In this document: piece after piece, positions 14,099-45,996 of the stretch
Layout: each line of letters begins with the position of its first letter
Position numbering within the stretch: position 1 is the first letter of the stretch
Assembly: GCA_021831685.1 (NCBI GenBank)
Contig: JAKBMG010000178.1
Span: forward strand, 1-46,757
DNA: 46,757 bases
Reading direction: 5' to 3'
From: Bacteroidota bacterium
Lineage (GTDB): Bacteria; Bacteroidota; Ignavibacteria; Ignavibacteriales; Ignavibacteriaceae
Notes under the pieces: generated by a model
Told to the model about the DNA's origin: nothing
What the model saw: the letters and a program-made list of their open reading frames with translations, nothing else
Databases searched by the model: none
Translations under genes and position numbers: made by a program

Positions 14099-16147
14099 AT
14101 GAAAAACATTGGAAAAAATACCGACATCATTTTAGCCTTTGCATTAATTTTTATGCTGGGGTTAATGATTATTCCACTTCCGGCTTATCTGCTTGATTTT
14201 TTTCTTGCATTGAACATAACTTTGTCCGTTTTAATACTTATTGTTTCTCTATATATTCAGTCCCCTTTAGACATTTCGATTTTTCCCGGATTGCTATTAG
14301 TCCTTACTCTTTTTAGGCTTTCGCTTAATATCAGTTCGGCAAGATTAATTTTGCTTGACGGATATGCCGGAAAAGTAATTGATACATTCGGCGCATTCGT
14401 AGTGGGAGGAAATTATGTTGTCGGCTTTATAATTTTCATAATCCTGGTAGTAATCCAATTTATTGTAATTATAAAAGGATCGGGAAGAATATCGGAAGTT
14501 GCAGCTCGTTTTACCCTTGATGCAATGCCAGGCAAGCAAATGGCGATTGATGCCGATTTGAATACCGGTTTGATTAACGAATCGGAAGCGAGGCAAAGAA
14601 GAGAATCCATCGCAAGAGAAGCGGAATTTTACGGAGCAATGGATGGCGCAAGTAAATTTGTAAAAGGAGATGCCATTGCAGCGCTTCTTATAAATGTGAT
14701 AAATATAATAGGAGGGTTTATAATAGGTATAGCTTCCAAGGGTATGTCTTTTACGGATGCCATTCATACTTATACAATTTTAACAATCGGGGATGGTCTC
14801 GTTTCTCAAATTCCCGCATTGTTAATAGCAACCTCAGCAGGTTTAGTTGTAACAAGAAGTGCTGCCGGTACTGCACTTGATAAGCAAATGAAAACCCAAT
14901 TACTTTCAAACCCGCGTGTCTTAGGAACAGTTTCCGGAGCGATAGGCCTTTTTGCTTTGATACCAGGCATGCCTGCAATTCCATTTCTTTTGCTTAGCAC
15001 GCTTTTAGGAACACGCGCTTTTCTTACAAAGAAAAGCCAGGGAAATTCTACCGATTCCGCAGAAGCGCAAGTTACAGAGGTTGAACCGGGTGAAGAAAAG
15101 GTTGAGCAGTACTTGCAAGTCGATCCTGTCGAAATTGAAATTGGTTACGGACTAATAAATCTTGTTGATGAAAAACAAGGAGGAAACTTATTTCAAAAAA
15201 TATCTTCTACAAGAAAATATATAGCTCTGGAATATGGAGTATTAATTCCTCCTGTACGTGTTAGGGATAATTTACAACTTGAACCGAACGAATATATAAT
15301 TAAAATTAAAGGAAATATAGTTGCATCTTATGAAATATACACCGATAGATTCCTTGCTATGAATCCTGGAAATATTATTGAACCTTTAAATGGAATTCCG
15401 ACAAAAGACCCTGCGTTTAATCTATCCGGCTTTTGGGTTACGCGGGAAGAAAAAGATAAAGCCGAGCTTTTAGAATATACCGTAGTAGATAGTATTTCGG
15501 TATTATCGACGCATCTTCAAGAAACATTAAAGAAAAACTTCGATAAGATTTTGACAAGGCAAGCTGTAAAACAACTCTTAGAAAACTTAAAGAAGGAATA
15601 CCCGGCAGTAATCGAAGACATAAATTCTGATGCATTATCGCTCGGCACAATTCAAAAAGTGCTCCAGAATTTATTAAAAGAATTAATCCCGATTAAAGAC
15701 CTGGTTCAAGTGTTGGAAGCTTTGATTGATTATTCAAAGGTAACGAAAAATATTGATGTGCTTACTGAGTATGTAAGACATGCAATGGGTGAAACAATTG
15801 CAAACTTGTATAAAGATAATAACGGCATCATTCATGCTATTTCGCTTGGTGAAGAAATAGAATCGTTTATTACGAAAGCTCTGCAAAATCAAAAAGAAGC
15901 GGTGCAAACACTTGGATTAACCCCGGTAGTTTTACGCGAGCTAAATAATAGAATTCAAAACTTTGTAGAAAAGTTTAAGATGCTTGGTTATATTCCTATA
16001 GTAATTACATCTGCTACTATCAGACCATATTTTTACAGGCTTATTAACGCAAGCTTCCCCGATGTTGTTATCCTTTCATATTCAGAGCTTCCTTCTCATA
16101 TGGAAATTGAGTTCATTGAAAAATTAGAGGTAATTAATGCAAATTAA
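14099..16147 (+). CDS. flhA: Flagellar export gate protein FlhA
   Basis: Large nonameric export-gate subunit that couples proton flow to export. The first 310 residues hold about eight membrane helices. The FHIPEP-family block is in the loop after helix four (AARFTLDAMPGKQMAIDADL, then INESEARQRRESIAREAEFY). A long cytoplasmic domain receives chaperone-substrate pairs. Length 682 is normal. The flhF ATG lies inside its 3' end in another frame (11-base overlap). Confidence 0.97.
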   Translation: MKNIGKNTDIILAFALIFMLGLMIIPLPAYLLDFFLALNITLSVLILIVSLYIQSPLDISIFPGLLLVLTLFRLSLNISSARLILLDGYAGKVIDTFGAFVVGGNYVVGFIIFIILVVIQFIVIIKGSGRISEVAARFTLDAMPGKQMAIDADLNTGLINESEARQRRESIAREAEFYGAMDGASKFVKGDAIAALLINVINIIGGFIIGIASKGMSFTDAIHTYTILTIGDGLVSQIPALLIATSAGLVVTRSAAGTALDKQMKTQLLSNPRVLGTVSGAIGLFALIPGMPAIPFLLLSTLLGTRAFLTKKSQGNSTDSAEAQVTEVEPGEEKVEQYLQVDPVEIEIGYGLINLVDEKQGGNLFQKISSTRKYIALEYGVLIPPVRVRDNLQLEPNEYIIKIKGNIVASYEIYTDRFLAMNPGNIIEPLNGIPTKDPAFNLSGFWVTREEKDKAELLEYTVVDSISVLSTHLQETLKKNFDKILTRQAVKQLLENLKKEYPAVIEDINSDALSLGTIQKVLQNLLKELIPIKDLVQVLEALIDYSKVTKNIDVLTEYVRHAMGETIANLYKDNNGIIHAISLGEEIESFITKALQNQKEAVQTLGLTPVVLRELNNRIQNFVEKFKMLGYIPIVITSATIRPYFYRLINASFPDVVILSYSELPSHMEIEFIEKLEVINAN

Positions 16148-17273
16148 AAAATATTTGGCACCAACTTTAAAACAAGCTTCAGCTCAGATGAAAGAAGAGT
16201 TGGGCGGTGATGCAGTGATTTTAGGGACGAGGGTAATTTCGGGCGAAGACAAATATGGCTCAAAAAAAATGTTTGAAATTACTGCGGGTTTTGAAGAAGA
16301 AATCATTTTTGAAAATACAGGAAATTACGGGAAGAGTTTAAAGACAACTGCAAAGGAGAGTTTTTCTGATGAACTAAAAAAGTTATCCGATAAAATTTTC
16401 ATTAATCCTTCGTCAAACAATAATTTTCCTTCGGAATTCGGGGAAAAATTAAAACAGTCCCAGATTAAAAAAACGTCAACAAACATTCATCAAAAAGAGC
16501 TAAAGGAAATTATTGACACATTGTATCACCACGAAGTTCAGAAGCGTGTTTTAACATCGGTTATAAATCAACTAAAAAAGTTTGACGGATTTTTAGAGCC
16601 TTCAAATATGGAAAGCTATGTTTTATCAAGCATTTCTTCGATGATTCCAACCTATAATTTTGAAGTCAATAAAAATAAAAAGCCTAAGAAAGTTGCATTG
16701 GTTGGTCCTACCGGAGTCGGGAAAACAACTTGCATAGCTAAGCTGGCGGTTATTTCTAAAATACTTCACAACTTAAATGTTGGACTGATTTCAATCGACA
16801 CATACAGGTTAGGAGCTATAGACCAGCTTAGAATATTTTCTGAAGTCAGCAATATTGATATGCTGGTTGCCTATGAGCCATCCGATATTCCTCATCTAAT
16901 GAATTCATTTAAAAATAAGGATATAGTTTTTATTGACACAGCCGGTAGAAGTCAAAAAAATATTGAACATCTAACAAAGGCAAAAGAATTTTTGACCGCG
17001 GGTAAAGTTGATGAAACTTATCTTGTCTTAAGTGCGACAGGCACGTCAAAAAATCTTTTTGATGTTGCTGAGAAATTTAAATTGTTCGATTATAATTCGG
17101 TTATTTTTACAAAAATTGATGAGGCTGTATCCTATGGGAATATTTTAAATATTGTGACAAAATTTGATGTCCCCGTCTCCTTTTTGACTAATGGTCAGGT
17201 AATTCCAGATGATATAATCTCTGCTGATCCGGAATTCATTTCTAAGATGATTTATACAGGAAAAATAAATTAA
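16137..17273 (+). CDS. flhF: Flagellar placement SRP-like GTPase FlhF
   Basis: GTPase that decides where a flagellum is built. The N-terminal B domain starts MQIKKYLAPTLKQASAQMKE. The NG domain has P-loop GPTGVGKTT from residue 190, then IDTYRLGAIDQLRIF and G3 DTAGRSQKN. The 378 residues are normal. It is followed directly by its partner FlhG, sharing one base with the FlhG start, so the pair is co-produced. Confidence 0.95.
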   Translation: MQIKKYLAPTLKQASAQMKEELGGDAVILGTRVISGEDKYGSKKMFEITAGFEEEIIFENTGNYGKSLKTTAKESFSDELKKLSDKIFINPSSNNNFPSEFGEKLKQSQIKKTSTNIHQKELKEIIDTLYHHEVQKRVLTSVINQLKKFDGFLEPSNMESYVLSSISSMIPTYNFEVNKNKKPKKVALVGPTGVGKTTCIAKLAVISKILHNLNVGLISIDTYRLGAIDQLRIFSEVSNIDMLVAYEPSDIPHLMNSFKNKDIVFIDTAGRSQKNIEHLTKAKEFLTAGKVDETYLVLSATGTSKNLFDVAEKFKLFDYNSVIFTKIDEAVSYGNILNIVTKFDVPVSFLTNGQVIPDDIISADPEFISKMIYTGKIN

Positions 17274-18121
17274 TGACCGGTCAAGCCGAAAGAGTATTTG
17301 AACTGGAAAGTTTAAAGAACAACGAAGCTTTAAGATATTCCTCAAAAATTGTCGCTTTTACATCGGGCAAAGGAGGGACAGGCAAAACATTTATTTCGGT
17401 TAGCCTTGCTTATGCAATTTCAAGATTGAATAAAAAAGTCTTATTTATTGATTTAGATTCCAACCTTTCTAACGCCAATATTATGCTAAATGTTGTTGCA
17501 GGTAAAACACTATATGATTTCTTTACCGGAAGAAGCTTACTTCATGAATTAATTACCAAATACGAACCTAATTTACATTTTATTTTTGGCGACTCTGGAA
17601 AATCGGATTACCCAAAACCAAAAGCCGAATTTGTCGGTCAACTATTTAATCAAATAAGAGCTCTTCAGAACGATTATGATATTGTTTTGTTGGATACCGG
17701 TGCGGGTGCAGGAGAAGACGTTATATCGGTATTATTAAATGCTGATAAAAATATATTAGTTACTACCCCCGAACCGACAGCCGTAATGGACGCTTATGTA
17801 ATTATAAAATTTTTAAGCAGTCGTAATTATTCTGGCGAAAAAATGGTGATTATAAATAAGTGTGTTGATCGTAACGACGGAGAGGTTACTTTTAATAATC
17901 TTTCCCTGGCAGCAAATCATTTCTTAAAGGAGAAAATAGATCTGCTGGGCGAAATTAAATATGACAACACAATAAGTAAAACAATTAAAGCCCAAGAACT
18001 ATTTATAAAAAAGTATCAGCGGACAGAAGCAAGTCTTCAAATCTTAAAGACAGCTAAAAGACTTTCTGAAATCATTCAAGTGGCTAATATTCACCATCCT
18101 AACAAAAAATCATTTCTGTAA
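17273..18121 (+). CDS. flhG: MinD-like flagellar number regulator FlhG (YlxH/FleN)
   Basis: ParA/MinD-family ATPase that limits flagellar number and stimulates FlhF. The deviant Walker A is KGGTGKT at 33-39, with FIDLDSNLSNANIML and LLDTGAGAGEDVISVL as switch regions. In the family an N-terminal DQAxxLR-like helix activates FlhF; here it reads GQAERVF, only partly matching. It ends the fliL operon; no terminator is evident in the 96 bases that follow. Confidence 0.92.
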   Translation: MTGQAERVFELESLKNNEALRYSSKIVAFTSGKGGTGKTFISVSLAYAISRLNKKVLFIDLDSNLSNANIMLNVVAGKTLYDFFTGRSLLHELITKYEPNLHFIFGDSGKSDYPKPKAEFVGQLFNQIRALQNDYDIVLLDTGAGAGEDVISVLLNADKNILVTTPEPTAVMDAYVIIKFLSSRNYSGEKMVIINKCVDRNDGEVTFNNLSLAANHFLKEKIDLLGEIKYDNTISKTIKAQELFIKKYQRTEASLQILKTAKRLSEIIQVANIHHPNKKSFL

Positions 18122-18447: not shown

Positions 18448-19077
18448 ATGAATACTGCAACACTTTGGGATGAATTTAAAGCTGAGCCGACTGCAAGTCT
18501 AAAGAAGCAGATTATAATGAATTATATAAAATTAGTTCATTACGTAATTCATCACTCTAAATTTGTAAGTCTGGAAATCCTGGATGACCGAGATTATTTC
18601 CAGTTTGGTGTTGAAGGATTAAGTGAAGCAATTGACCGGTTTGATCCCCAATACGGAACAAAGTTTGAAACTTATGCTATCCAAAGAATTAGGGGGAAAA
18701 TAATTGATGAGCTAAGAAAACTTCAAATAAAACCGCGTTCTAACGCTCAGGATTCGGAGCAAGTGAATTTTTACTCAAATGTATCTTTGACGAGCTCGGT
18801 TGATGATGAAGACGGTTATTTATTGTACGAAATAATTCCGGGCAGCTCGGAAGTTCCAGACCAATCAACTGAAAAAAATCAAGTGAAAGAAATTCTTGTA
18901 GATGCTATCAAACAATTAGACGAAAGGGACCGCTTGATCATCACTTTATATTATTATGAAGACTTAAATTACAAAGAGATAGCAAAGGTCTTGAATATTA
19001 CAGTCTCAAGAGTTTCTCAAGTTCATTCAAGAATAATTGACATGCTAAAAACCAAGCTGGCTTATATAAATGATTAA
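18448..19077 (+). CDS. fliA: Flagellar sigma factor FliA-type, region 3 apparently missing
   Basis: Sigma-28-type factor for late flagellar genes. Region 2 is at about 17-92 (YFQFGVEGLSEAIDRFDPQY, then FETYAIQRIRGKIIDELRK) and region 4 at 145-205 (LDERDRLIITLYYYEDLNYK, EIAKVLNITVSRVSQVHSRI). Between them only about 50 mostly polar residues remain, against about 95 in FliA/SigD, which run through sigma region 3 after the PRS position. Total length is 209 rather than about 240-255. The reading frame is clean. It may recognise promoters with relaxed or altered rules. Confidence 0.9.
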   Translation: MNTATLWDEFKAEPTASLKKQIIMNYIKLVHYVIHHSKFVSLEILDDRDYFQFGVEGLSEAIDRFDPQYGTKFETYAIQRIRGKIIDELRKLQIKPRSNAQDSEQVNFYSNVSLTSSVDDEDGYLLYEIIPGSSEVPDQSTEKNQVKEILVDAIKQLDERDRLIITLYYYEDLNYKEIAKVLNITVSRVSQVHSRIIDMLKTKLAYIND

Positions 19078-19948
19078 TAAATACCCGCCAAATATTAACG
19101 AAAAGAAAACCTACCTCCGGCTATTATCTAGTATTCGGAATCTTCCTTCAATTCCCATAGTGATTTTTGAAGTTTCCAAGCTTTTAAATAATCCGAAAAC
19201 TAGTGCTTCCGACCTCGGTAGAATGATAAGCCAAGATCAGGGAATGGTTGCGAAAATATTAACTGTAGCCAACTCTCCTCTTTATGGGTTGCCGAGAAGA
19301 GTTTCTACAATTGAATTTGCCATTGTAATCCTTGGCTTTGAACACATTAAAAATATCGTTATTGCGCTTTCGATGATTGAAGCGTTTAAAAAAGAAACTG
19401 GAAAAAATTGGGATAGCAAATCTTATTGGAACCATTCTATTATGACTGCCAGCGCAGCAAAAAAAATAGCTGATGATCTAAACTATCCCAAATCCGGTGA
19501 GGCTTTTACTGCTGGGCTTTTACATGACCTTGGCATTTCAATCACCCAGAGGTATTTCAACATGGAGTTTAAAGCCATTTGCGATCTTGTTGATAAGGAA
19601 CAAATGAGATACTTGAAAGCTGAAGAACAAATTTTAGGATTAACACATCAAGAGATCGGCAAATTTTTAATCAGCAGATGGAATCTTCCTGAGTTCCTTG
19701 GAGATGCGATTTACCACCACCATTGCCCTTCCAAATCTGAAGAAAGTAAAGTGCTATCCTCGATTGTTCATCTTGCAGATTATATGACACAAAAGTTTGG
19801 AGTAGGATGTTTTTATTGGGACGAAAATATAGAACTTGATGAAAATATTATTCAAATTTTAAATTTCGGAAACGAATCCAACTTAAATAAATTTATTGCT
19901 AACTACGAGGAACCTTTTAAAAATCAAATTGAAACAACAATCTTTTAG
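19070..19948 (+). CDS. HDOD-domain signalling protein, copy 1
   Basis: A 292-residue single HDOD domain (about 20-240). HDOD proteins are signal-transduction outputs related to HD-GYP domains, often linked to motility and development. Typical motifs are LPSIPIVIFEVSKLL and VAKILTVANSPLYGLPRRVS. HD-type residues remain: H122, H152-D153, H193, H216-218 and D237. Whether these bind metal or hydrolyse anything is unknown. It overlaps fliA by eight bases, so is probably coupled to it. It is paralogous to the next gene. Confidence 0.88.
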   Translation: MINKYPPNINEKKTYLRLLSSIRNLPSIPIVIFEVSKLLNNPKTSASDLGRMISQDQGMVAKILTVANSPLYGLPRRVSTIEFAIVILGFEHIKNIVIALSMIEAFKKETGKNWDSKSYWNHSIMTASAAKKIADDLNYPKSGEAFTAGLLHDLGISITQRYFNMEFKAICDLVDKEQMRYLKAEEQILGLTHQEIGKFLISRWNLPEFLGDAIYHHHCPSKSEESKVLSSIVHLADYMTQKFGVGCFYWDENIELDENIIQILNFGNESNLNKFIANYEEPFKNQIETTIF

Positions 19949-19957
19949 TGAAACATT

Positions 19958-20842
19958 ATGATGACATTTACAATGACAGAACAGAAAAAAAGAGAAAAAA
20001 CAGAACTAGTATTGAGGAATATTTATAATCTTCCTCCGATTCCTGATGCTATTAAACAAGCCCTTGAAATGCTTGATAGACCGGTACTAAATAGCAATTT
20101 GTTGTCAAATATTATTTCGAAAGACCAAGGACTGGTAACCAAAATCCTTACCATCGCAAATTCACCTTTATACGGACTACAGAGGAAAGTAACTACTGTT
20201 GAATTTGCAATTCTAGTGCTTGGGTACAGCGAACTTAGGAATATTATTTCGGTTCTTTCGATTGTTGAAGCATTCAAAAATAAAACTGATACATTTCTGA
20301 GCCAAAAAGAATTTTGGCTTCATTCTTTTCTGACAGGCTCTGCATCAAAAAGATTGGCTGAAGATTTTGACTTCCCAAATAGCGGTGAAGCATTTATTGC
20401 CGGGTTCTTGCATGATTTTGGTTTTTCAATAATCCATAGATTCTTTCATGCTGATTTTATTGAAATCTATAAGTTGGTTAACGAAAAAGGGTTCGAATTC
20501 TGGGAAGCTGAACTGGAAATTCTTGGAATGACTCATCAGCAGATCGGAAATTATTTAGCTGAAAAATGGAATTTTCCCGAAACACTTTGTGAAGCTATTT
20601 TGTTTCATCATAATCCGGAAGAATCTAAACAAAATAAAGTACTTGCTTCAATTGTTCATCTTGCTGATTTTATGACGGAAAGATTAAACATTGGTAACTC
20701 GTACTGGGATAAAAATTTAGTTCTAAGTGATTCGGAAGTTGGCGTGCTAAGGTTTAGAGAACATGAACAGGTAGATAAGTTTATCGAAAATTACAGAGAA
20801 ATATTTATCGAACAGGTTAACACTGTAAGGTTTTTGAATTGA
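19958..20842 (+). CDS. HDOD-domain signalling protein, copy 2
   Basis: A 294-residue paralogue of the preceding gene, aligning without gaps over residues 20-240 (VTKILTIANSPLYGLQRKVT). It keeps the same HD-type residues: H122, H152-D153, H193, H217-218 and D237. It starts nine bases after copy 1, and the next gene starts inside its stop, making one tight unit with fliA. The pair looks like an old tandem duplication, since flanks and many surface residues differ. Function unknown. Confidence 0.88.
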   Translation: MMTFTMTEQKKREKTELVLRNIYNLPPIPDAIKQALEMLDRPVLNSNLLSNIISKDQGLVTKILTIANSPLYGLQRKVTTVEFAILVLGYSELRNIISVLSIVEAFKNKTDTFLSQKEFWLHSFLTGSASKRLAEDFDFPNSGEAFIAGFLHDFGFSIIHRFFHADFIEIYKLVNEKGFEFWEAELEILGMTHQQIGNYLAEKWNFPETLCEAILFHHNPEESKQNKVLASIVHLADFMTERLNIGNSYWDKNLVLSDSEVGVLRFREHEQVDKFIENYREIFIEQVNTVRFLN

Positions 20843-22146
20843 GAGTAATTAAACAAAATACTTTAAGCTACGAGTCCTTTCATAAGTCATTGCCTAACAT
20901 GACAAGAAGCGGTATCTCCGGAAGAACTCTTAGGCTCATTCAATATAATCACAGCGCCGGAAAGGAAACCGATAGAAATAAATATTATCTGGCTTTGCAA
21001 GCTATTCTTAATTTCGAAGAAAAAATTAAAGGGTTGAATGACCCGACAAAAATAATTGAAGAATTTAATCTGGGCCTAAAAAGTATTATCAATTATCAGG
21101 AAGTAGATATTCTAATCTTCGATGATCAGAAAAAAATACTAAGGGGATTTTCGAATAAAGTTTCTTTAAGTGCAAAAAGAATTTTGGGAAAACCGGCTGT
21201 ATTGGAAACAATTGAAGAAATTTTTAGAACCCAAAAATTTGTTTTGCTTTTAGACCGGGCTTCTACCAGCGGTTCTGAAAATGGGGTTTGTATCTTGCTG
21301 CCAGCACTAACCGTATCAAAGCAAAAAATTGTTCTTTCAATTTTGACTAATGCAAAGTTGGCGCCGGAAACTCCGATGGAAATTCCTTTAATCCAAACGG
21401 CTCTTCAAATTTTGTTATCTAAAAAAGAGCTTTTGGCAAAGCAAGAAGAATTAATCCACGCGTATGAAAGTCTTCAAGTTTACCAATCAAAACTTGCAAA
21501 TGATTACAAACTTTCTGCTATAGGCGAACTGACAACCGGTATTGTCGACGAAATTCTTTCTCCTTTGCAAGTAATTATTAGCTATGCAGAGTTTCTAAAA
21601 AAAGATAATCCTCATTCTGATAATAAAATTGTAGATACTATTCAGCTTCAAGTTAAAAAGGTCGAAAGAGTTATTAACCGTTTAGTACAATTTGCAAATA
21701 CCGGGGATAATAAAACAAAGGTTCAGTCTTGTGATGTTAATAAGCAAATTACCGAGTTTTATGACGTGGTTATCTCATCCTTAAATAATAATAATTACGA
21801 ATGCATCTTAGACTTAGATGAGAAAATTCCTTCTATGCTTAGCCATCCAAACGTAATAGACCAGATACTGACAAATTTGTTTTCTTTTATAGTTAATGAC
21901 GAAAACAAACCGGGCGGCTTTGTTATTCAAACAAGATTTCAAAATGAAAATATAGTATTAAAATTCCTTTCGACAGATAATCTGAACGACATAAAAGATG
22001 AAAACTTAAAATCTGCTAAACACTTAAATCTGAAATTGGTAAAAAACTTGATGGACCAGCATCAAGGTGAAATAAGAATTGAATCTGATAACATCAGAGG
22101 TACGATAGTTACGCTTTTATTCCCATTAAAGAGGAAAATAAATTAA
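20839..22146 (+). CDS. GAF-like protein with decayed histidine-kinase module (pseudokinase)
   Basis: A 435-residue soluble protein. Residues about 50-200 look like a GAF-type sensor. Residues 220-300 have the DHp pattern, but the phospho-accepting His is Asp237 (IGELTTGIVDEILSPLQVII; usual form AHEINNPL). The ATPase half keeps the fold-type end (LKLVKNLMDQHQGEIRIES, GTIVTLLFP), but the N-box Asn and the glycines of the G boxes are gone. It is therefore unlikely to autophosphorylate. It overlaps HDOD copy 2 by four bases, so it may be that pair's partner or sensor. No specific family name is claimed. Confidence 0.8.
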   Translation: MRVIKQNTLSYESFHKSLPNMTRSGISGRTLRLIQYNHSAGKETDRNKYYLALQAILNFEEKIKGLNDPTKIIEEFNLGLKSIINYQEVDILIFDDQKKILRGFSNKVSLSAKRILGKPAVLETIEEIFRTQKFVLLLDRASTSGSENGVCILLPALTVSKQKIVLSILTNAKLAPETPMEIPLIQTALQILLSKKELLAKQEELIHAYESLQVYQSKLANDYKLSAIGELTTGIVDEILSPLQVIISYAEFLKKDNPHSDNKIVDTIQLQVKKVERVINRLVQFANTGDNKTKVQSCDVNKQITEFYDVVISSLNNNNYECILDLDEKIPSMLSHPNVIDQILTNLFSFIVNDENKPGGFVIQTRFQNENIVLKFLSTDNLNDIKDENLKSAKHLNLKLVKNLMDQHQGEIRIESDNIRGTIVTLLFPLKRKIN

Positions 22147-22766
22147 TGAAAATCATTTTTCTTTTAATTATTTCAGGATTTTTTACTACTGCAGTCCTGG
22201 GACAAAAAACAATTAATAATGTTTTGCTTAAGAGCGAGCAATTGGATACAACTGCCTTTAACTCTGCTGGAACTGATTCGGATACTGTAAATATTAGTCA
22301 AATGGTTGCAGCGCAAATTGATGCGGCACGCAAAAAAGAAGAACAGATCAATAATAATCCGGCACTGGTAATTCAATCCAACATAACACAAAACACTAAA
22401 CCCGCTTCATTAAACCTTTATGACGAATTAAAAACTAGATTTTCTATTCCTGAAGATGTCATGATGAAGGCTTCTATTCTTGCTACTGCCTCGTTTATTT
22501 CAGCCGCAGTTATTTTTATAAGAAGAAGGAAAAGTAAACGCAAGAAACAACCCGCTAATAAAAATCTAAAAGAAAATATTAAATCCTTGAGAGAAGAAAA
22601 AATTCAAATTAAGGGCAGCAGCAAGCTTTCTAGCGTTAGGAATAGATTAGCAGAAAATACTCCGGCATATAATTTAACTCAAGGTGATATTTCAAGAACC
22701 GCTAAAAGGTTGAATATATCCAAGGAAGAAATATTACTTGCCCAAAGGTTAAAACGGATGCGTTAA
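22146..22766 (+). CDS. Unknown membrane protein with C-terminal HTH-like end
   Basis: A 206-residue protein with a signal peptide (1-19, ending VLGQ), a short Asn/Thr-rich outside part, a membrane helix at about 108-125, then a very basic cytoplasmic stretch (RRRKSKRKKQPANKN). The last 30 residues are helix-turn-helix-like (GDISRTAKRLNISKEEILLA). Flagellar loci of Firmicutes carry SwrB/YlxL (DUF6115) with one membrane helix and a similar C-terminal helix pair; this may be an analogue, which is inference. Its ATG overlaps the pseudokinase stop. The topology is unusual for a DNA-binding protein. Confidence 0.65.
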   Translation: MKIIFLLIISGFFTTAVLGQKTINNVLLKSEQLDTTAFNSAGTDSDTVNISQMVAAQIDAARKKEEQINNNPALVIQSNITQNTKPASLNLYDELKTRFSIPEDVMMKASILATASFISAAVIFIRRRKSKRKKQPANKNLKENIKSLREEKIQIKGSSKLSSVRNRLAENTPAYNLTQGDISRTAKRLNISKEEILLAQRLKRMR

Positions 22767-22837: not shown

Positions 22838-23542
22838 ATGATTAAAGGAATATATACTGCAGCACGTGGTCTAGATGCCCGTATGAAAAATCTTGAAGTT
22901 ATTGCCAATAATCTTGCAAATTTAAACACTACCGGATTCAAAAAAGAAATGCCTTTTTCTGAAGTTATGAATCAGTATGGTCAAACACAGATTCAGCAAG
23001 TTACCGATTTTAGACAAGGCGATTTGGCGCAGACAAACAATCCTACAGATGTAGCAATATCCGGCAAAGGATTTTTTGTTGTTCAAACAGAAAACGGCCA
23101 AGAATTTACGCGCAACGGTAGTTTTAAAATTTCCGATAATGGCTATCTTGTCGACCAGCAAGGGAATAAAGTTATGGGGCATAACGGATCGATTAAAATA
23201 GATATGCTTTCATTTGAAAAACAAAAAAATTTTACAATTTCTAATAACGGTGAAATAAAATTCGGCAATAATGTTATTGATTCACTCATGATCGCTAAAA
23301 TGAATGATCAGCAAGATTCCGCAAGGGATTCCGGAACTAACTTTTCCGCTACCGGGGGATTCCAAGTAGCTAATCAAAATGATTTTCAAATAAAGCAGGG
23401 GTATCTCGAAGAATCAAACGTAAATCCGATTAAAGAATTGGAAAATATGATCCAGGTGAATAACGAATATCAATCAGCAAGTAAGATGATTACATTTTTA
23501 GATAAGTCACTTGACGAAGCTAATCAAATAGGAAAAGTATAG
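22838..23542 (+). CDS. flgF: Flagellar proximal rod protein FlgF
   Basis: Rod subunit. The N-terminal rod motif is at 1-38 (IKGIYTAARGLDARMKNLEV, IANNLANLNTTGFKK), followed by GDLAQTNNPTDVAISGKGFF and the C-terminal motif GYLEESNVNPIKELENMIQV. At 234 residues it is shorter than FlgG and lacks the MIAAQRAYE ending typical of that protein, so FlgF fits better. No clear Shine-Dalgarno site precedes the ATG. It heads the flgF-flgL block. Confidence 0.92.
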   Translation: MIKGIYTAARGLDARMKNLEVIANNLANLNTTGFKKEMPFSEVMNQYGQTQIQQVTDFRQGDLAQTNNPTDVAISGKGFFVVQTENGQEFTRNGSFKISDNGYLVDQQGNKVMGHNGSIKIDMLSFEKQKNFTISNNGEIKFGNNVIDSLMIAKMNDQQDSARDSGTNFSATGGFQVANQNDFQIKQGYLEESNVNPIKELENMIQVNNEYQSASKMITFLDKSLDEANQIGKV

Positions 23543-23558
23543 ATAAGGAGTAATAAAA

Positions 23559-24359
23559 ATGCCAACACGAGCACTAAGAACCGCAGCATCCGGAATGTAT
23601 GCGCAGGAGTTAAATATTGAAGTTATTTCTAACAACATTGCCAACATTAACACAACCGGATTTAAAAAAAACCAAGCAGAGTTTCAGGATCTAATGTACC
23701 AGCAAGTTAACGTTAGCCCGGTTAATTCATCTGTTCAAGGAGCAGCTCAAAATTCATCCACGGCGATTCAAGTTGGTAACGGCGTTCAACCGACTGCTGA
23801 CGAAAAAATATTTACCCAAGGAGATGTAACTCAAACTAACAACCAGCTTGACCTTGCAATTCAAGGTGATGGTTTTTTCCAGGTGCTTAAACCGGACGGA
23901 ACTTATGCTTACTCTCGTGACGGTTCTTTCCAGGTAAATGCTGACGGAAAAATTGTAACTTCAAGCGGCTACGCTTTAGACCCTCCAATTACACTTGACC
24001 AAAATTCTCTTAGCGTATCAATCGGTAAAGATGGAACCGTTACAGCCCAACAGGTTGGAGGTAGTTCAAAAGTCATCGGCAATATTGAGCTTGCAAGGTT
24101 TATGAACCCCGGCGGATTAAAATCTTTGGGAGATAATTTATATGCGCAAACCGATGCATCAGGAACACCAATTATCGGTACACCCAACAAAGATGGTTTC
24201 GGTTCTATAAATCAAGGTTATCTCGAATCTTCAAATGTTGATATCGTTCAGGAAATGATTGCAATGATTGCCGCTCAAAGAGCTTATGAGATAAATTCTA
24301 AAACCGTGCAAACGGTTCAAGATATGATGACAATGGCTAATAACCTTAAACAAAATTAA
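23559..24359 (+). CDS. flgG: Flagellar distal rod protein FlgG
   Basis: Distal rod subunit running through the P and L rings. The motifs are complete: LRTAASGMYAQELNIEVISN, NIANINTTGFKKNQAEFQDL, GDVTQTNNQLDLAIQGDGFF, and C-terminal GYLESSNVDIVQEMIAMIAA followed by QRAYEINSKTVQTVQDMM. The 266 residues are standard. An AAGGAG site lies nine bases before the ATG. Confidence 0.97.
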   Translation: MPTRALRTAASGMYAQELNIEVISNNIANINTTGFKKNQAEFQDLMYQQVNVSPVNSSVQGAAQNSSTAIQVGNGVQPTADEKIFTQGDVTQTNNQLDLAIQGDGFFQVLKPDGTYAYSRDGSFQVNADGKIVTSSGYALDPPITLDQNSLSVSIGKDGTVTAQQVGGSSKVIGNIELARFMNPGGLKSLGDNLYAQTDASGTPIIGTPNKDGFGSINQGYLESSNVDIVQEMIAMIAAQRAYEINSKTVQTVQDMMTMANNLKQN

Positions 24360-24365
24360 AATGTG

Positions 24366-25019
24366 ATGTATACTTTTTTATTAATCATATTGTCTTTCGC
24401 AGGTCAAGGAAAAAATTCTTTTAGCGACGATCTGAATAATTATCTGATGAAAAATTTATCCGGAAAATTTGAAGATTATAAGTATGAAGTTTTACAGATG
24501 CCAAAGTCTTACGATAAAATAGAATTCTTGAAAACGGATGACTTCAATCTAAGCCGAAATATGGTGTATATACCAGTAAAAATATTTCAAAAAAATTCAC
24601 GGGTGATTGAATCAATACTTTCTGTTAAATTGAAAATCTTCAAAAAAGTGATGGTTGCTTCAAAGGATATTTTAACACGTCAACAATTGGATGATAAAGA
24701 TTTTTGTCTGAAGAAAAAGGACGTTTCACTTATTAATGGAATTCCTCTTACTTCTTTTAAGAGCATTAATAATTTAAGAAGTACTGAATTTATTAAAGCT
24801 GGTGAAATTCTTACTAAAGAAATGGTAGAACCTGTTCCGATAATTAAAGCCGGAGATCCTGTAACTGCAAAATATATTGAAAGTAATGTACTCATAACTT
24901 TTAATGCGCTCTCCCATCAGGATGGAGCTTTAGGCGATGTAATTACAATTATCACAAAAGATAAAAAATTGTATAAAGCAAAAATAATAGACGCAAAAAA
25001 CGTAATTATAATAGAGTGA
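24366..25019 (+). CDS. flgA: P-ring assembly chaperone FlgA
   Basis: Periplasmic chaperone for FlgI. The 217 residues start with a hydrophobic export signal (MYTFLLIILSFAGQG), then a variable region, then the SAF/FlgA domain at about 90-216 (VMVASKDILTRQQLDDKDF, then FIKAGEILTKEMVEPVPII and KAGDPVTAKYIESNVLITF). The adjacent GTG at 24363 is an alternative start. It lies between flgG and flgH as in many Gram-negative loci. Confidence 0.92.
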   Translation: MYTFLLIILSFAGQGKNSFSDDLNNYLMKNLSGKFEDYKYEVLQMPKSYDKIEFLKTDDFNLSRNMVYIPVKIFQKNSRVIESILSVKLKIFKKVMVASKDILTRQQLDDKDFCLKKKDVSLINGIPLTSFKSINNLRSTEFIKAGEILTKEMVEPVPIIKAGDPVTAKYIESNVLITFNALSHQDGALGDVITIITKDKKLYKAKIIDAKNVIIIE

Positions 25020-25023
25020 TAAA

Positions 25024-25596
25024 ATGAAAAAAATAATTTTATTCGGAATGATAATATTTTCAACGCATCTCTTTGGGCAAGATATGAGGCAAAATTCATT
25101 CTCCTCACTTTTTTCGGATCAAAAAGCAAATAGAGTAGGTGATGCTGTTACAATCCTTGTTGTTGAATCTTCTCAAGCTTCAAATGACGCTGAAACTTCA
25201 GCAGGAAGAACAAGTAATTTAGGTTTAACAGGTCAATTAAATACGGGCGCTGCCACCGCGCCCGGTGTTGCAGCTAATATAGGCACTACTAACGATTTTA
25301 AGGGCACTGGTTCTACAACATCCCAAGGTATGATAAATACAAAAATTAGTGCGACAGTGGATTCTGTTCTTGCTAACGGAAATTTAGTCATTGATGGAAG
25401 TAGAAAAATTGTTATTAACGGGCAAGAACAAACTGTAAGCATTAAAGGAATTGTCAGACCGGCGGATATTGCTGCTGATAACTCGGTTTTGTCATATAAT
25501 ATTTCTGATGCACAAATAGTTTTTAAGGGCGAAGGGCTAATTAACAGTGCCCAGTCACCTGGCTGGCTGACTAAATTTTTACATTGGATATTTTAG
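25024..25596 (+). CDS. flgH: Flagellar L-ring protein FlgH, without a lipobox
   Basis: Outer-membrane L-ring subunit. The core matches the family: SLFSDQKANRVGDAVTILVV, ATVDSVLANGNLVIDGSRKI, GIVRPADIAADNSVLSYNIS and a GWLTKFLHWIF end. The signal peptide (about 1-19, FSTHLFGQD) has no Cys, and the whole 190-residue protein has none, so it cannot be lipidated as enterobacterial FlgH is. Anchoring to the outer membrane must differ. It sits four bases after flgA. Confidence 0.94.
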   Translation: MKKIILFGMIIFSTHLFGQDMRQNSFSSLFSDQKANRVGDAVTILVVESSQASNDAETSAGRTSNLGLTGQLNTGAATAPGVAANIGTTNDFKGTGSTTSQGMINTKISATVDSVLANGNLVIDGSRKIVINGQEQTVSIKGIVRPADIAADNSVLSYNISDAQIVFKGEGLINSAQSPGWLTKFLHWIF

Positions 25597-25603
25597 GCTG
25601 AAA

Positions 25604-26692
25604 ATGAAAAAGTTAATTGTTTCTTATTTGCTAGTTAGTATCTCTTTTATTTACGGACAAAGGATAAAAGATATTGCCTACATCACCGGTGAAGGATCGG
25701 AACAAATTATAGGCTATGGACTGGTTGTTGGTTTAGCCGGTAGTGGAGATACACAACGTTCTACTTTTACTATACAATCAATAACAAGCATGTTAAAGCG
25801 TTTCGGTATTACTGTATCGCAGGATAATTTATTAACAAGAAATGTTGCTGCTGTTATGGTAACCGCTACGATTAACGATTATTTAAAGTCGGGTGCTAAA
25901 TTTGATGTAACGGTGTCTTCAATGGGTGATGCAACAAGCCTTCAAGGGGGAACTTTATTGATGACCCCGTTATCAAGCATGACCGGAAAAGTATACGGCT
26001 ATGCCCAGGGATCAATTTCGGTCGGCGGATTTGATGTTAGAACCCCGACTGGAAATAGGGTTTCACAAAATCATTCACTTGCCGGAAGAGTCCCAATGGG
26101 GGGCATCCTCAATTATGCCCTTGAGAAAGATAGTATTCCGAATCAAAATATTAGTGTCTTTTTAAGAGAACCTGATTTGACAACATCAAATAATGTAGCA
26201 AATGCAATTAATGCAAAGTTTGGCAACAACGTAGCACTTGCTAAAGATGGTGCCGAAATAGATGTAAAAATTCCAACATCCAAACAAAATAATATTGTAG
26301 CATTTCTTTCAGACTTGGAGACCATCACTGTTCAAAAAGATGAAGTTGCCAAAGTAGTACTTGATGAAAGAACCGGTACAGTCGTTGCGGGGAATAATGT
26401 TAAAATTCTTCCAGCTACTATTACTCACGGAAATTTAAACATCACCATTAGATCATATCCTATAATTTCTCAACCAAATGCTTTCTCAAGCGGAACTACA
26501 CAAGTATTTAATAATTTGGTTCCCTATGTAACTGAGGATTCAACTAGCACTATTGCAATCCAGGGTGCCTCGACAGTGCAGCAAGTTGCAGCAGCGTTAA
26601 ACTCTTTAAAAGTATCGCCTCAAGACATAATCTCAATTTTCCAGGCACTTAAAAAAGCCGGAGCTTTAATAGGAGAATTGGATATTATATGA
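25604..26692 (+). CDS. flgI: Flagellar P-ring protein FlgI
   Basis: Periplasmic P-ring subunit around the rod. Signal peptide is at about 1-18 (VSYLLVSISFIYGQ), then the conserved start RIKDIAYITGEGSEQIIGYG, LVVGLAGSGDTQ and SMGDATSLQGGTLLMTPL. The C-terminal block is VVLDERTGTVVAGNNVKILP. Length 362 is normal. Its stop overlaps the flgJ start by four bases. Confidence 0.97.
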   Translation: MKKLIVSYLLVSISFIYGQRIKDIAYITGEGSEQIIGYGLVVGLAGSGDTQRSTFTIQSITSMLKRFGITVSQDNLLTRNVAAVMVTATINDYLKSGAKFDVTVSSMGDATSLQGGTLLMTPLSSMTGKVYGYAQGSISVGGFDVRTPTGNRVSQNHSLAGRVPMGGILNYALEKDSIPNQNISVFLREPDLTTSNNVANAINAKFGNNVALAKDGAEIDVKIPTSKQNNIVAFLSDLETITVQKDEVAKVVLDERTGTVVAGNNVKILPATITHGNLNITIRSYPIISQPNAFSSGTTQVFNNLVPYVTEDSTSTIAIQGASTVQQVAAALNSLKVSPQDIISIFQALKKAGALIGELDII

Positions 26693-27528
26693 TAGGAAAT
26701 TTAGAACTTAAAATAACAGATCCGCAAAAGCAAATTGCTAACCCGGCAGAGGTGCCGGATCACTATACGGATGCTCAAAAAGCAAAAATTGAAAATGCAG
26801 CTAAACAGTTTGAAAGTCTTTTAACTTCTATGATGTTAAAAAGCATGACAAAAACTTCTGAAGGAATGTTTGGCGATAAAAGTTTTGGCGGAGATTACTT
26901 CGATACTGTATTTCAAAATGAAATCGCCTCATTCATATCTAAAAATAAAAGTATGGGAGTTGCTAATGTCCTTTATAAGAAAATTACGGGCGAAGATATG
27001 GATTCTAAAGCTCAAAGTAGTCAGCTTTCTCCTTTAAATAATGGATCGAACTCTGATCTCAAATTAAATAATGATTCTATTCCTATTACGCCAAGCACTA
27101 AATCGACTGATAGGCTTAGCCGGTATGATGATATAATTAATTCGGCATCACAGCAATTTGGCGTTGATAAAAACTTAATAAAGTCTGTTATCTTAACTGA
27201 GTCCGCCGCAAACGAAAGAGCAGTTTCAAGTGAAAAAGCAAAAGGTTTAATGCAGCTTATAGACTCCACTGCTAAAGAAATGGGAGTTTCAAATGTGTGG
27301 GATCCCAAGCAAAATATTTTAGGAGGAACAAAATATTTAGCTCAAATGCTTCAGAAATTTAATGGGAATGTAGACCTTGCGCTTGCATCTTACAATGCCG
27401 GACCTCAAAACGTCGAAAAATATGGTGGCGTTCCTCCATTTGAGGAAACTCAAAATTATATTAAAAGAGTTATGGGTTATTTAAACCATTTAAAAGGAGC
27501 AGCAAATGGAACTGAACAATCTATTTAA
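26689..27528 (+). CDS. flgJ: FlgJ: rod-binding domain fused to a lytic transglycosylase
   Basis: Rod cap with built-in peptidoglycan hydrolase. Residues 30-105 are the rod-binding domain (AAKQFESLLTSMMLKSMTKT, then GGDYFDTVFQNEIASFISK). Residues 145-275 form an SLT (goose-lysozyme-like) domain with catalytic Glu171 (SVILTESAANERAVS), KAKGLMQLIDSTAKEMGV and LALASYNAGPQNVEKYGGVP. Enterobacterial FlgJ carries an N-acetylglucosaminidase instead. FlgN starts inside its 3' end in another frame. Confidence 0.93.
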   Translation: MIGNLELKITDPQKQIANPAEVPDHYTDAQKAKIENAAKQFESLLTSMMLKSMTKTSEGMFGDKSFGGDYFDTVFQNEIASFISKNKSMGVANVLYKKITGEDMDSKAQSSQLSPLNNGSNSDLKLNNDSIPITPSTKSTDRLSRYDDIINSASQQFGVDKNLIKSVILTESAANERAVSSEKAKGLMQLIDSTAKEMGVSNVWDPKQNILGGTKYLAQMLQKFNGNVDLALASYNAGPQNVEKYGGVPPFEETQNYIKRVMGYLNHLKGAANGTEQSI

Positions 27529-35034: not shown

Positions 35035-35423
35035 AAAATATTTTAGTCATAGAAGACGATCCGATAACAATAACTTTGTATAAATATATTCTCAAAAAAG
35101 CGGGTTATAATTATTATATACTTGAAGACGGAAATGAAATAATAAACCTTTTGGAAGATGTAAAAATCCATTTGATTATCATGGATATTAGTTTAAGGAA
35201 CTCCTATCTTAATGGTCAAAAAATGGATGGAATTAAGCTTTCGAGTTATATAAAAGGAAACTCCAGGTATGAAAATATTCCAATTATTATCGTTACTGCA
35301 TATTCTGCGAAAATTGAAGGCGATGATTTTTTCAAAAGAAGCTTTGCTGACGATGTTTTAACAAAACCCATTGTGGATTTTAATTTATTTATTAGTAAAA
35401 TAAACACACAAATAAAAAATTGA
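35031..35423 (+). CDS. Single-domain response regulator (REC only)
   Basis: A 130-residue stand-alone receiver: ILVIEDDPITITLYKYILKK with acidic pair Glu8/Asp9/Asp10, phospho-acceptor Asp52 (HLIIMDISL), and Lys in DVLTKPIVDF. About eight extra residues (RNSYLNGQK) sit between the Asp52 loop and the usual DG turn, which might affect partner choice. It is not clearly CheY; the switch-binding surface cannot be judged. It overlaps motB by four bases, and the next gene's TTG start by its own stop. Confidence 0.88.
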   Translation: MKNILVIEDDPITITLYKYILKKAGYNYYILEDGNEIINLLEDVKIHLIIMDISLRNSYLNGQKMDGIKLSSYIKGNSRYENIPIIIVTAYSAKIEGDDFFKRSFADDVLTKPIVDFNLFISKINTQIKN

Positions 35424-36085
35424 AAAAGAATACTATCCTAATAGTTGAAGATGAAAAAGACACTCTATTCATTCTCGATAAACTTCTTACAAAAAACGAC
35501 TTCCAAGTTTATACCTCTACAAATGGACAAGAAGCTCTAAAATTACTCGATGAAGTTTTGCCTCAAGTGATAATTGCTGACTGGACTATGCCGGTCATGA
35601 GCGGTCTTGAGCTTTGTAATACGATTAAGAAAAACGAAAAATTTAAATCCATTTATTTTATTATCCTCACTGCCAGAGCTTCCTTAAAAGATAGAGTTAC
35701 TGGTCTAGATTTAGGAGCTGACGACTTTCTGGTTAAACCTGTTCAAAACCAGGAATTGCTTGCACGGATTCGTTCAGGTATACGTATTTATAATCTCCAA
35801 AACGAGCTCATTAAAATTGAGCATAATAAAGCCCTTATCGAAATGGCTTGCACAATCGGACATAAAATTAACAACCCTTTAAGTAGTTTAGTAGTTTCTA
35901 TCCATAATATTGAAGAAGAAATTAAGAGAATTGAAAAAACTGAGAAAAAATCCTTTGCTGAAGACTTCAATGTAATATCCCAATCAATCGAACGGATAAA
36001 AATTTTAGTAAATGACCTTACTCACCTGCAAAATCCGAAAATTATCGATTATACTTCTGATAATAAAATGCTGAAACTCGACTGA
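35420..36085 (+). CDS. Receiver plus DHp-like domain without kinase catalytic domain (REC-DHp)
   Basis: A 221-residue protein. REC is at about 4-125 (ILIVEDEKDTLFILDKLLTK, Asp54 in IIADWTMPVMSGLE, Lys in DDFLVKPVQ). A DHp-type helix follows with His148 (LIEMACTIGHKINNPLSSL). The frame stops after a second helix (residue 221), with no HATPase domain. The His-bearing helix could serve as a phosphotransfer or dimer domain. It starts with TTG overlapping the previous stop, which suggests coupled, lower translation. Confidence 0.85.
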   Translation: MKKNTILIVEDEKDTLFILDKLLTKNDFQVYTSTNGQEALKLLDEVLPQVIIADWTMPVMSGLELCNTIKKNEKFKSIYFIILTARASLKDRVTGLDLGADDFLVKPVQNQELLARIRSGIRIYNLQNELIKIEHNKALIEMACTIGHKINNPLSSLVVSIHNIEEEIKRIEKTEKKSFAEDFNVISQSIERIKILVNDLTHLQNPKIIDYTSDNKMLKLD

Positions 36086-44872: not shown

Positions 44873-44893
44873 CTATTTAGATAAGGATATTTG

Positions 44894-45996
44894 ATGATAG
44901 ATGTTGAAATAAAACATAATTCATTGTTAGATTTTTTTGAATCTGCCGGTTATACGCCTGAAATTGTCAACGGCAAAAAGAAGTTCAAAGTATTTTCATC
45001 AGTTCAAAATGAACTAAATTCACTATGCATGGGCGTTGGGCTCAGAGACATTTCTCAAAGCGGTATAATCGAACTCAGAGGAAAAGATGTTCTTGATTTC
45101 TTGCATAGGATAACAACAAATTCACTCAAAGATTTGCAGAAAGAAAAATTAGCCGGTACAATATTTACTTCCGAGAAGGGAAGAATTATTGATACTGCAA
45201 CAATCTTTAATTTTGAAGACCATCAACTTTTAATTTACAGCGAAGCTAACCGGGAAAAAGTCCTAAGTTGGATTAATAAATATGTTATTACAGACGATGT
45301 TCATATAAACAGTTCTTCAGAAAGTTATATTCTTCTTGAAATGACCGGTCAACAGTCTGATTCGTTTTTGACCTTAGTTTGCGGAAATTCAATCAACGAA
45401 ATTATGCGAACCAGTTTAGGGTTGTACGCACAGAAGGATTAATCTTTATTGTTGCAAAGCTAAATGAACTAAATGGAAATAAGAAATATTGGATTTTAGC
45501 CGATATAAGTAACGGTATCCAGTTAACAAAATATATGATAGATCATACAGGCCCATTTGATTTTAATCTTATTGGCGAAGATGCTTATAATATTTACCGC
45601 ATTACCAAAGGAATTCCAGCAGCTCCAAACGAACTAAATGATCAGTTTAATCCTCACGAAGCTGGATTGCTAAATTTAGTGAGCTTTACCAAAGGTTGTT
45701 ACATCGGTCAAGAAGTAGTTGCCCGGTTAGAAACTTATGACAAAGTACAAAAATATTTGAAACGACTTACATTCCATCAACCGGTAGACGAAAACGGAAA
45801 ATTTCTTCTTGTGGATCAAGAAGGAAATGATGCAGGAATTGTCACTTCGGTTGCATATTCGCCAAAATTCAATAAGTATTATGGATTAGGATATGTAAGA
45901 AAAGCATATTGCCAGGATGGAAAAACTCTCTTTGCCACAAATCAATCTGATGAAAAAGTACCTGTTACAATTGGAAATATTTCTGAAACAAAATGA
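44894..45996 (+). pseudogene. YgfZ/GcvT-like folate-binding protein gene, frameshifted
   Basis: Two overlapping frames together cover one YgfZ-type protein of about 367 residues (tetrahydrofolate-binding, linked to iron-sulfur cluster enzyme maintenance). The first part (44894-45442) holds the N-terminal domain (CMGVGLRDISQSGIIELRGK, DVLDFLHRITTNSLKDL) and stops after ...GLYAQKD. The second (from about 45379 to 45996, shifted by -1) holds the diagnostic KGCYIGQEVVARLETYDK. The shift lies between about 45395 and 45440. It fits a one-base loss or a sequencing error; I see no slippery heptamer. A TTG at 45391-45410 is not a convincing restart. Confidence 0.8.

Follow-up and report, generated by a model that had tools for sequence, protein, structure and literature searches.

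The window analyzed here, 46,757 nucleotides of DNA from a member of the order Ignavibacteriales, carries a flagellar supercluster with the gene order flhB-flhA-flhF-flhG, a gap, and then fliA-HDOD1-HDOD2-pHK-orf206-flgF-flgG-flgA-flgH-flgI-flgJ. The pHK gene codes for a pseudo-histidine kinase. The features discussed below are as follows.

14099..18121, + strand: flhA-flhF-flhG, upstream; same gene order in orthologs
18448..19077, + strand: fliA, sigma-28, a form shortened in sigma region 3, where about 38 aa seem to be missing
19070..19948, + strand: HDOD1, overlapping fliA by 8 nt (PF08668, E 9e-62)
19958..20842, + strand: HDOD2, overlapping pHK by 4 nt, TTGA (PF08668, E 2e-52)
20839..22146, + strand: pHK open reading frame, TTG start, 435 aa
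pHK residues 41-178: GAF, the sensor part of the domain layout
pHK between GAF and DHp: long linker helix
pHK residues 212-287: DHp, with Asp237 in place of His
pHK residues 296-432: CA, with the N, G1 and G2 boxes lost
21490..21603, + strand: core of pHK DHp helix 1 (residues 218-255), with order-specific K218, N221, D222 and S248, and Asp237 at the phospho-acceptor site
22146..22766, + strand: orf206, the gene after pHK and before flgF; by eye, its N-terminus is hydrophobic and a transmembrane segment is present
22838..27528, + strand: flgF-flgG-flgA-flgH-flgI-flgJ, downstream; same gene order in orthologs

An earlier note on this DNA had described the open reading frame at 20839..22146 as a GAF-DHp-CA protein that has lost its catalytic residues, and had placed it in a unit with fliA and two HDOD genes joined by overlapping starts and stops. 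The frame is present, and two of the three junctions do overlap (fliA-HDOD1 and HDOD2-pHK). HDOD1 and HDOD2 are instead separated by 9 nt.

The DHp helix of pHK reads KLSAIGELTTGIVDEILSPLQ, with Asp237 occupying the His position; the note's reading of this site (GIVDEILSPLQ) was correct. Its report of a missing N-box Asn and missing G-box glycines also agrees with our analysis. Phe350 stands at the N-box Asn position, STDNL replaces the DxGxG motif of G1, and KHLNLKL replaces the GxGxG motif of G2. Thus, among the features that define a HisKA-type kinase enzyme, pHK lacks the phospho-accepting His, the N-box Asn and both G boxes. The overall kinase fold is nevertheless retained, as the note had held. 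Pfam detects HisKA above its cut-off (E 1.2e-8), while HATPase_c scores 22.3 bits against a cut-off of 26.4, and the DHp-CA part matches known folds at Z 15-18. An AlphaFold2 model built with 39 orthologs (mean pLDDT 74.5) shows GAF, a long helix, DHp and CA in succession, and its CA region resembles the ZraS, DivL and NtrB structures (Z 17-18, rmsd 1.8-2.5 over 123-141 residues). The GAF-like domain was likewise borne out. A 164-residue N-terminal part modeled alone reached a pLDDT of 87.7, and a fold search with residues 41-204 returned GAF domains. Pfam calls GAF in a few orthologs from the order and clearly in the sister orthologs described below.

We surveyed 59 further genomes from the same order. 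Full-length pHK orthologs were found in 40 of them, and FlhA was found in exactly the same 40; the other 19, including two genomes from the same genus as the window (G003 and G011), lack both. Wherever the contig extends that far, the ortholog lies 3' of fliA and one or more HDOD genes and 5' of flgF, so the module with fliA and HDOD genes that had been proposed from the window holds across the order. The reading frame is open in all 40 orthologs. Comparing the window with its nearest relative (78% identity) gave a dN/dS of 0.078 over the full length of pHK and 0.030 within its CA domain, values that come from one sequence pair with dS near saturation. The pHK gene is under purifying selection, with a dN/dS of about 0.08. 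A sporadic mutation or a pseudogene is ruled out by the 40 orthologs and this ratio.

The catalytic residues are lost throughout the order. Site 237 is Glu in 28 of the 40 orthologs, Asp in five, Asn in two, and Gly, Thr, Ser, His or Gln in one each. The single His belongs to L056 (genome G056), which has also lost the remaining boxes. In orthologs from sister families, the phospho-accepting His is present in 42 of 45. The N-box Asn, found in 43 of 45 sister orthologs, is absent from all 40 orthologs in the order, which have a hydrophobic residue there. The G1 Asp and Gly382 are invariant in the sister set (45/45 each) and absent from the order (0/40 each); Gly380 remains in one ortholog of the order, and the G2 glycines Gly395 and Gly397 remain in one and four. 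Because the loss is universal inside the order, it is ancestral rather than sporadic. The earlier note had taken intact orthologs as a sign of sporadic mutation: such orthologs do exist outside the order, but none was found within it. The complete catalytic set occurs in 0 of 40 orthologs, which supports the note's suggestion that the protein could be non-enzymatic. Conservation within pHK is highest in DHp helix 1, where several residues were gained and fixed in the order (K218 in 40/40; N221, D222 and S248 in 39/40) while differing in the sister orthologs. This pattern suggests that the DHp helix may have acquired a new binding role. Together, these results indicate that pHK is very probably a non-enzymatic flagellar regulator.

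We traced the origin of pHK by a profile search across the phylum; every further strong homolog that it returned belongs to another family of this class. Six of these families (f4, f5, f8, f10, f52 and f55) carry an intact GAF-HisKA-HATPase kinase at the same locus, in the order flhF-flhG-fliA-HDOD-X-flgF. Profiles of the order and sister proteins align over their full length (hhalign probability 100, residues 8-436), and pHK shares with this kinase family its position between HDOD and flgF and its GAF sensor. The presence of an intact GAF histidine kinase at the same locus identifies pHK as its decayed ortholog. In a quick tree with long branches, the 21 sampled pHK sequences from the order form one branch with a support of 100. 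Three sequences elsewhere in the class also lack the His (N, K or R at the site), all from family f11 (L172, L174 and L177). Their G2 box is degraded, and two of the three lie at a fliA-HDOD locus. Since these sequences fall within a different well-supported tree group from the pHKs of the order, a second, independent decay in f11 is likely.

The neighboring genes showed several features of their own. HDOD1 and HDOD2 retain near-complete HD-type metal ligands (H122, H152, D153, H193, H217 and D237) that are kept across orthologs. In sister fliA operons, seven loci in six genomes encode an HDOD protein that ends in a fused sigma-70 region 4 domain (L094:6504-7577; L097:6488-7654, the same locus as L176; L095; L096; two in L100; and L175). 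We found no sigma-70 region 4 domain in the HDOD proteins of the order itself. FliA is about 209 aa long in the order, with 42-47 residues between regions 2 and 4 (37 sequences) versus 75-96 in most sisters, and its region 3 seems to have been lost. A link between this loss and the kinase decay is weakened by G360 (f52), which combines a short FliA with an intact GAF histidine kinase. The fifth gene of the unit, orf206, is conserved and fast-evolving (dN/dS 0.127), and in one sister counterpart the C-terminus weakly resembles DUF6115. A scan of the window for sigma54 promoters gave 20 matches against 15.7 expected, no excess over chance. Elsewhere in the window, 35420-36085 encodes a response-regulator receiver fused to HisKA without a HATPase domain, and GCV_T and GCV_T_C (aminomethyltransferase) extend over two overlapping open reading frames at 44891-45996, perhaps through a frame break.

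A second flagellar locus in the genome of the window has the order fliC-fliS-fliD-orf-flgM-HK241-NtrC-type regulator. HK241 is a 241-aa kinase consisting of HisKA and HATPase only (Pfam), and its motifs are intact (LLHEIRNPLS, DTGVGI and GTGLGL). A bare HisKA-HATPase kinase of 229-265 aa lies beside the regulator in 37 of 41 flagellated genomes of the order. Among the other four, the kinase frame is broken in G032, the regulator lies at a contig edge in G035, and the regulator was not found in G010 and G012. In the G032 ortholog (L114:5568-6280), the CA domain lies in a different frame, through either a break or an assembly error. Orthologs of the NtrC-type regulator are 49-72% identical in order and sister genomes. 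In the sister families, the kinase beside the regulator has the layout REC-PAS-HisKA-HATPase in f4, f5, f8, f10 and f55 and PAS-HisKA-HATPase in f60, f62 and f11 (four assigned by Pfam, the others read by eye). HK241 sequences form their own tree branch, grouped with these sister regulator-adjacent kinases, and the tree gave no support for a close kinship of pHK and HK241 by gene duplication. A kinase of a flagellum-associated two-component system is catalytic and encoded beside its regulator; pHK is neither, and HK241 has the expected position. By sequence and domain content, one flagellar kinase of the order has thus lost catalysis and the other its sensor.

Two further ideas were weakened by this comparison. 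A phosphorelay in which the GAF histidine kinase would phosphorylate the REC carried by the kinase beside the regulator, with joint loss of both, fits poorly with f60 and f62, where the GAF kinase is intact yet the regulator-adjacent kinase has no visible REC. A role for pHK as a stand-in for a missing anti-sigma factor is at odds with the flgM gene that adjoins HK241. Its product is 86 aa long in the genome of the window and scores below the Pfam cut-off, and a first scan for FlgM had given an apparent absence in most genomes.

The evidence points to the NtrC-type two-component system at least as much as to the HDOD proteins or FliA, which the earlier note had suggested, as the target of pHK. 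The flagellar system is a candidate because its kinase is sensorless in the order. We tentatively propose, at somewhat less than even chances, that pHK is a non-catalytic sensory or scaffold subunit controlling this system. A more specific form of the proposal, to which we give distinctly less confidence, is a split sensor kinase: the sensor would reside on the dead GAF kinase of the fliA-HDOD operon and catalysis on the separate sensorless kinase beside flgM, following complementary losses in two once-complete kinases. In the ancestor of the order, a flagellar GAF-histidine kinase lost its phospho-accepting His and ATP-binding boxes while retaining the GAF sensor, the DHp dimerization helices and the CA fold. 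The DHp helices of pHK may now pair with HK241, or pHK may dock onto the NtrC-type regulator. A cytoplasmic signal would enter through GAF, and perhaps also through the co-translated HDOD proteins, and would pass first to the sigma54-dependent part of flagellar transcription and from there to the FliA-dependent part, a direction that we infer. Flagellar two-component kinases elsewhere are soluble and have divergent sensors, and in some the signal may come via an 'unidentified factor' (PMC7064773). Precedents for a dead-kinase subunit are FasC (PMC12675982), ChrS (PMC9491836) and DivL (PMC4211667).

Several observations weigh against this proposal. The pHK and HK241 genes are not adjacent, and they lie on separate contigs in G000. 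The kinase decay and the sensor loss of its putative partner coincide as a single event on the stem branch, which makes the association suggestive and not statistically independent. In f11, where the second decay probably occurred, the one regulator-adjacent kinase that was read, that of G532, keeps a PAS domain, and so decay is not generally accompanied by loss of the sensor. Finally, Campylobacter FlgS senses the MS ring directly (PMC7064773), and HK241 may need no partner.

The foremost alternative, possible but doubtful, is that pHK acts locally, binding HDOD1 and HDOD2 and through them FliA, as a sensor for FliA activity rather than for the NtrC-type system. The HDOD2-pHK junction is tight (4-nt overlap in 21 of 34, a spacing of at most 25 nt in 33 of 34, and a TTG start for pHK in 26 of 34), and fliA is upstream of the HDOD genes wherever the contig extends to it. 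The sister HDOD-sigma region 4 fusions provide a Rosetta-stone link from HDOD to sigma or to promoter DNA, and an effect of HDOD proteins on motility is known from elsewhere (PMC11004494, PMC11813219). However, a shared operon is no proof of binding, the fused sigma domain is absent from the HDOD proteins of the order, and FlgM, the ordinary inhibitor of FliA, is present, albeit below the Pfam cut-off.

We consider it improbable that pHK works as DivL does, with the dead DHp-CA part binding a phosphorylated receiver (FlgR-like or other) as input and reporting to partners. DivL offers a precedent for such a reader (PMC4211667), its DHp-CA structure ranks with the nearest fold matches (Z 17.3, rmsd 2.5 over 138 residues), and the strong conservation of DHp helix 1 despite the loss of His would suit this role. 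However, the N, G1, F and G2 boxes are still present in DivL and lost from pHK, and the receiver partner is only hypothetical.

It is more improbable still that the flagellar regulator has in pHK its own phosphatase or sink, working by means of acidic residues at the H and H+1 positions. HisKA phosphatases make use of an acidic side chain at H+1. Site 238 is acidic in 36 of the 40 orthologs, and site 237 is acidic in 33. However, the H+4 residue, Asn in 43 of 45 sisters, is Ser in 30 of 40 orthologs in the order, and the CA nucleotide site that many phosphatases need is gone. A functionless, decaying gene would account for the loss of every catalytic box, but we dismiss this explanation almost entirely given 40 open reading frames out of 40, the low dN/dS, the perfect co-occurrence with FlhA and the newly fixed residues.

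We compared pHK, in the role of non-catalytic subunit that we propose, to known systems. NifL is a kinase-like regulator of a sigma54 activator and acts by binding that regulator directly. RetS is not known to be a fully degenerate kinase. NifL, in the NifL-NifA structure (9qq6), is a fold match to pHK, as is RetS-GacS (co-complex 7n0e), in which one kinase is regulated by another through DHp pairing (discussed in PMC12675982). Pseudo-histidine kinases are already known from DivL and FasC. Caulobacter DivL (PMC4211667) resembles pHK in combining sensor domains with a DHp-CA part that lacks the phospho-accepting His, and in its non-catalytic two-component role. DivL has Tyr at the site, other boxes intact and PAS sensors, whereas pHK has lost all boxes, carries GAF and belongs to a flagellar locus. 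FasC of the FasBCAX system (PMC12675982) is a proposed dead kinase that would act as the sensor partner of an active one by DHp heterodimerization. Unlike pHK, FasC retains its His and is believed to accept phosphate, and FasB and FasC, unlike pHK and HK241, are encoded in one locus. The ChrS-CA frameshift pseudokinase (PMC9491836) is also a dead kinase that still promotes signaling through another kinase, but it is a laboratory mutant, whereas pHK represents the natural state of an order. NCBI places in Ignavibacteriales a cultivated, motile and flagellated isolate, Melioribacter roseus (PMC3534657). Few natural pseudo-histidine kinases have been described in the open-licence literature that we covered, most of them as isolated examples; the present one is carried by a whole order. 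The intact ortholog at the same locus and the apparent second decay make the route from enzyme to putative scaffold traceable. FlgS, FlrB and FleS (PMC7064773) are soluble NtrB-like kinases for flagellar NtrC-type regulators, and HK241 would be their counterpart. They are active enzymes; the gene for pHK stands elsewhere, within the fliA-HDOD operon. With the sensor lost from one flagellar kinase and catalysis from the other, the order offers a concrete and testable model of signal entry into flagellar two-component kinases, an open point in that field (PMC7064773).
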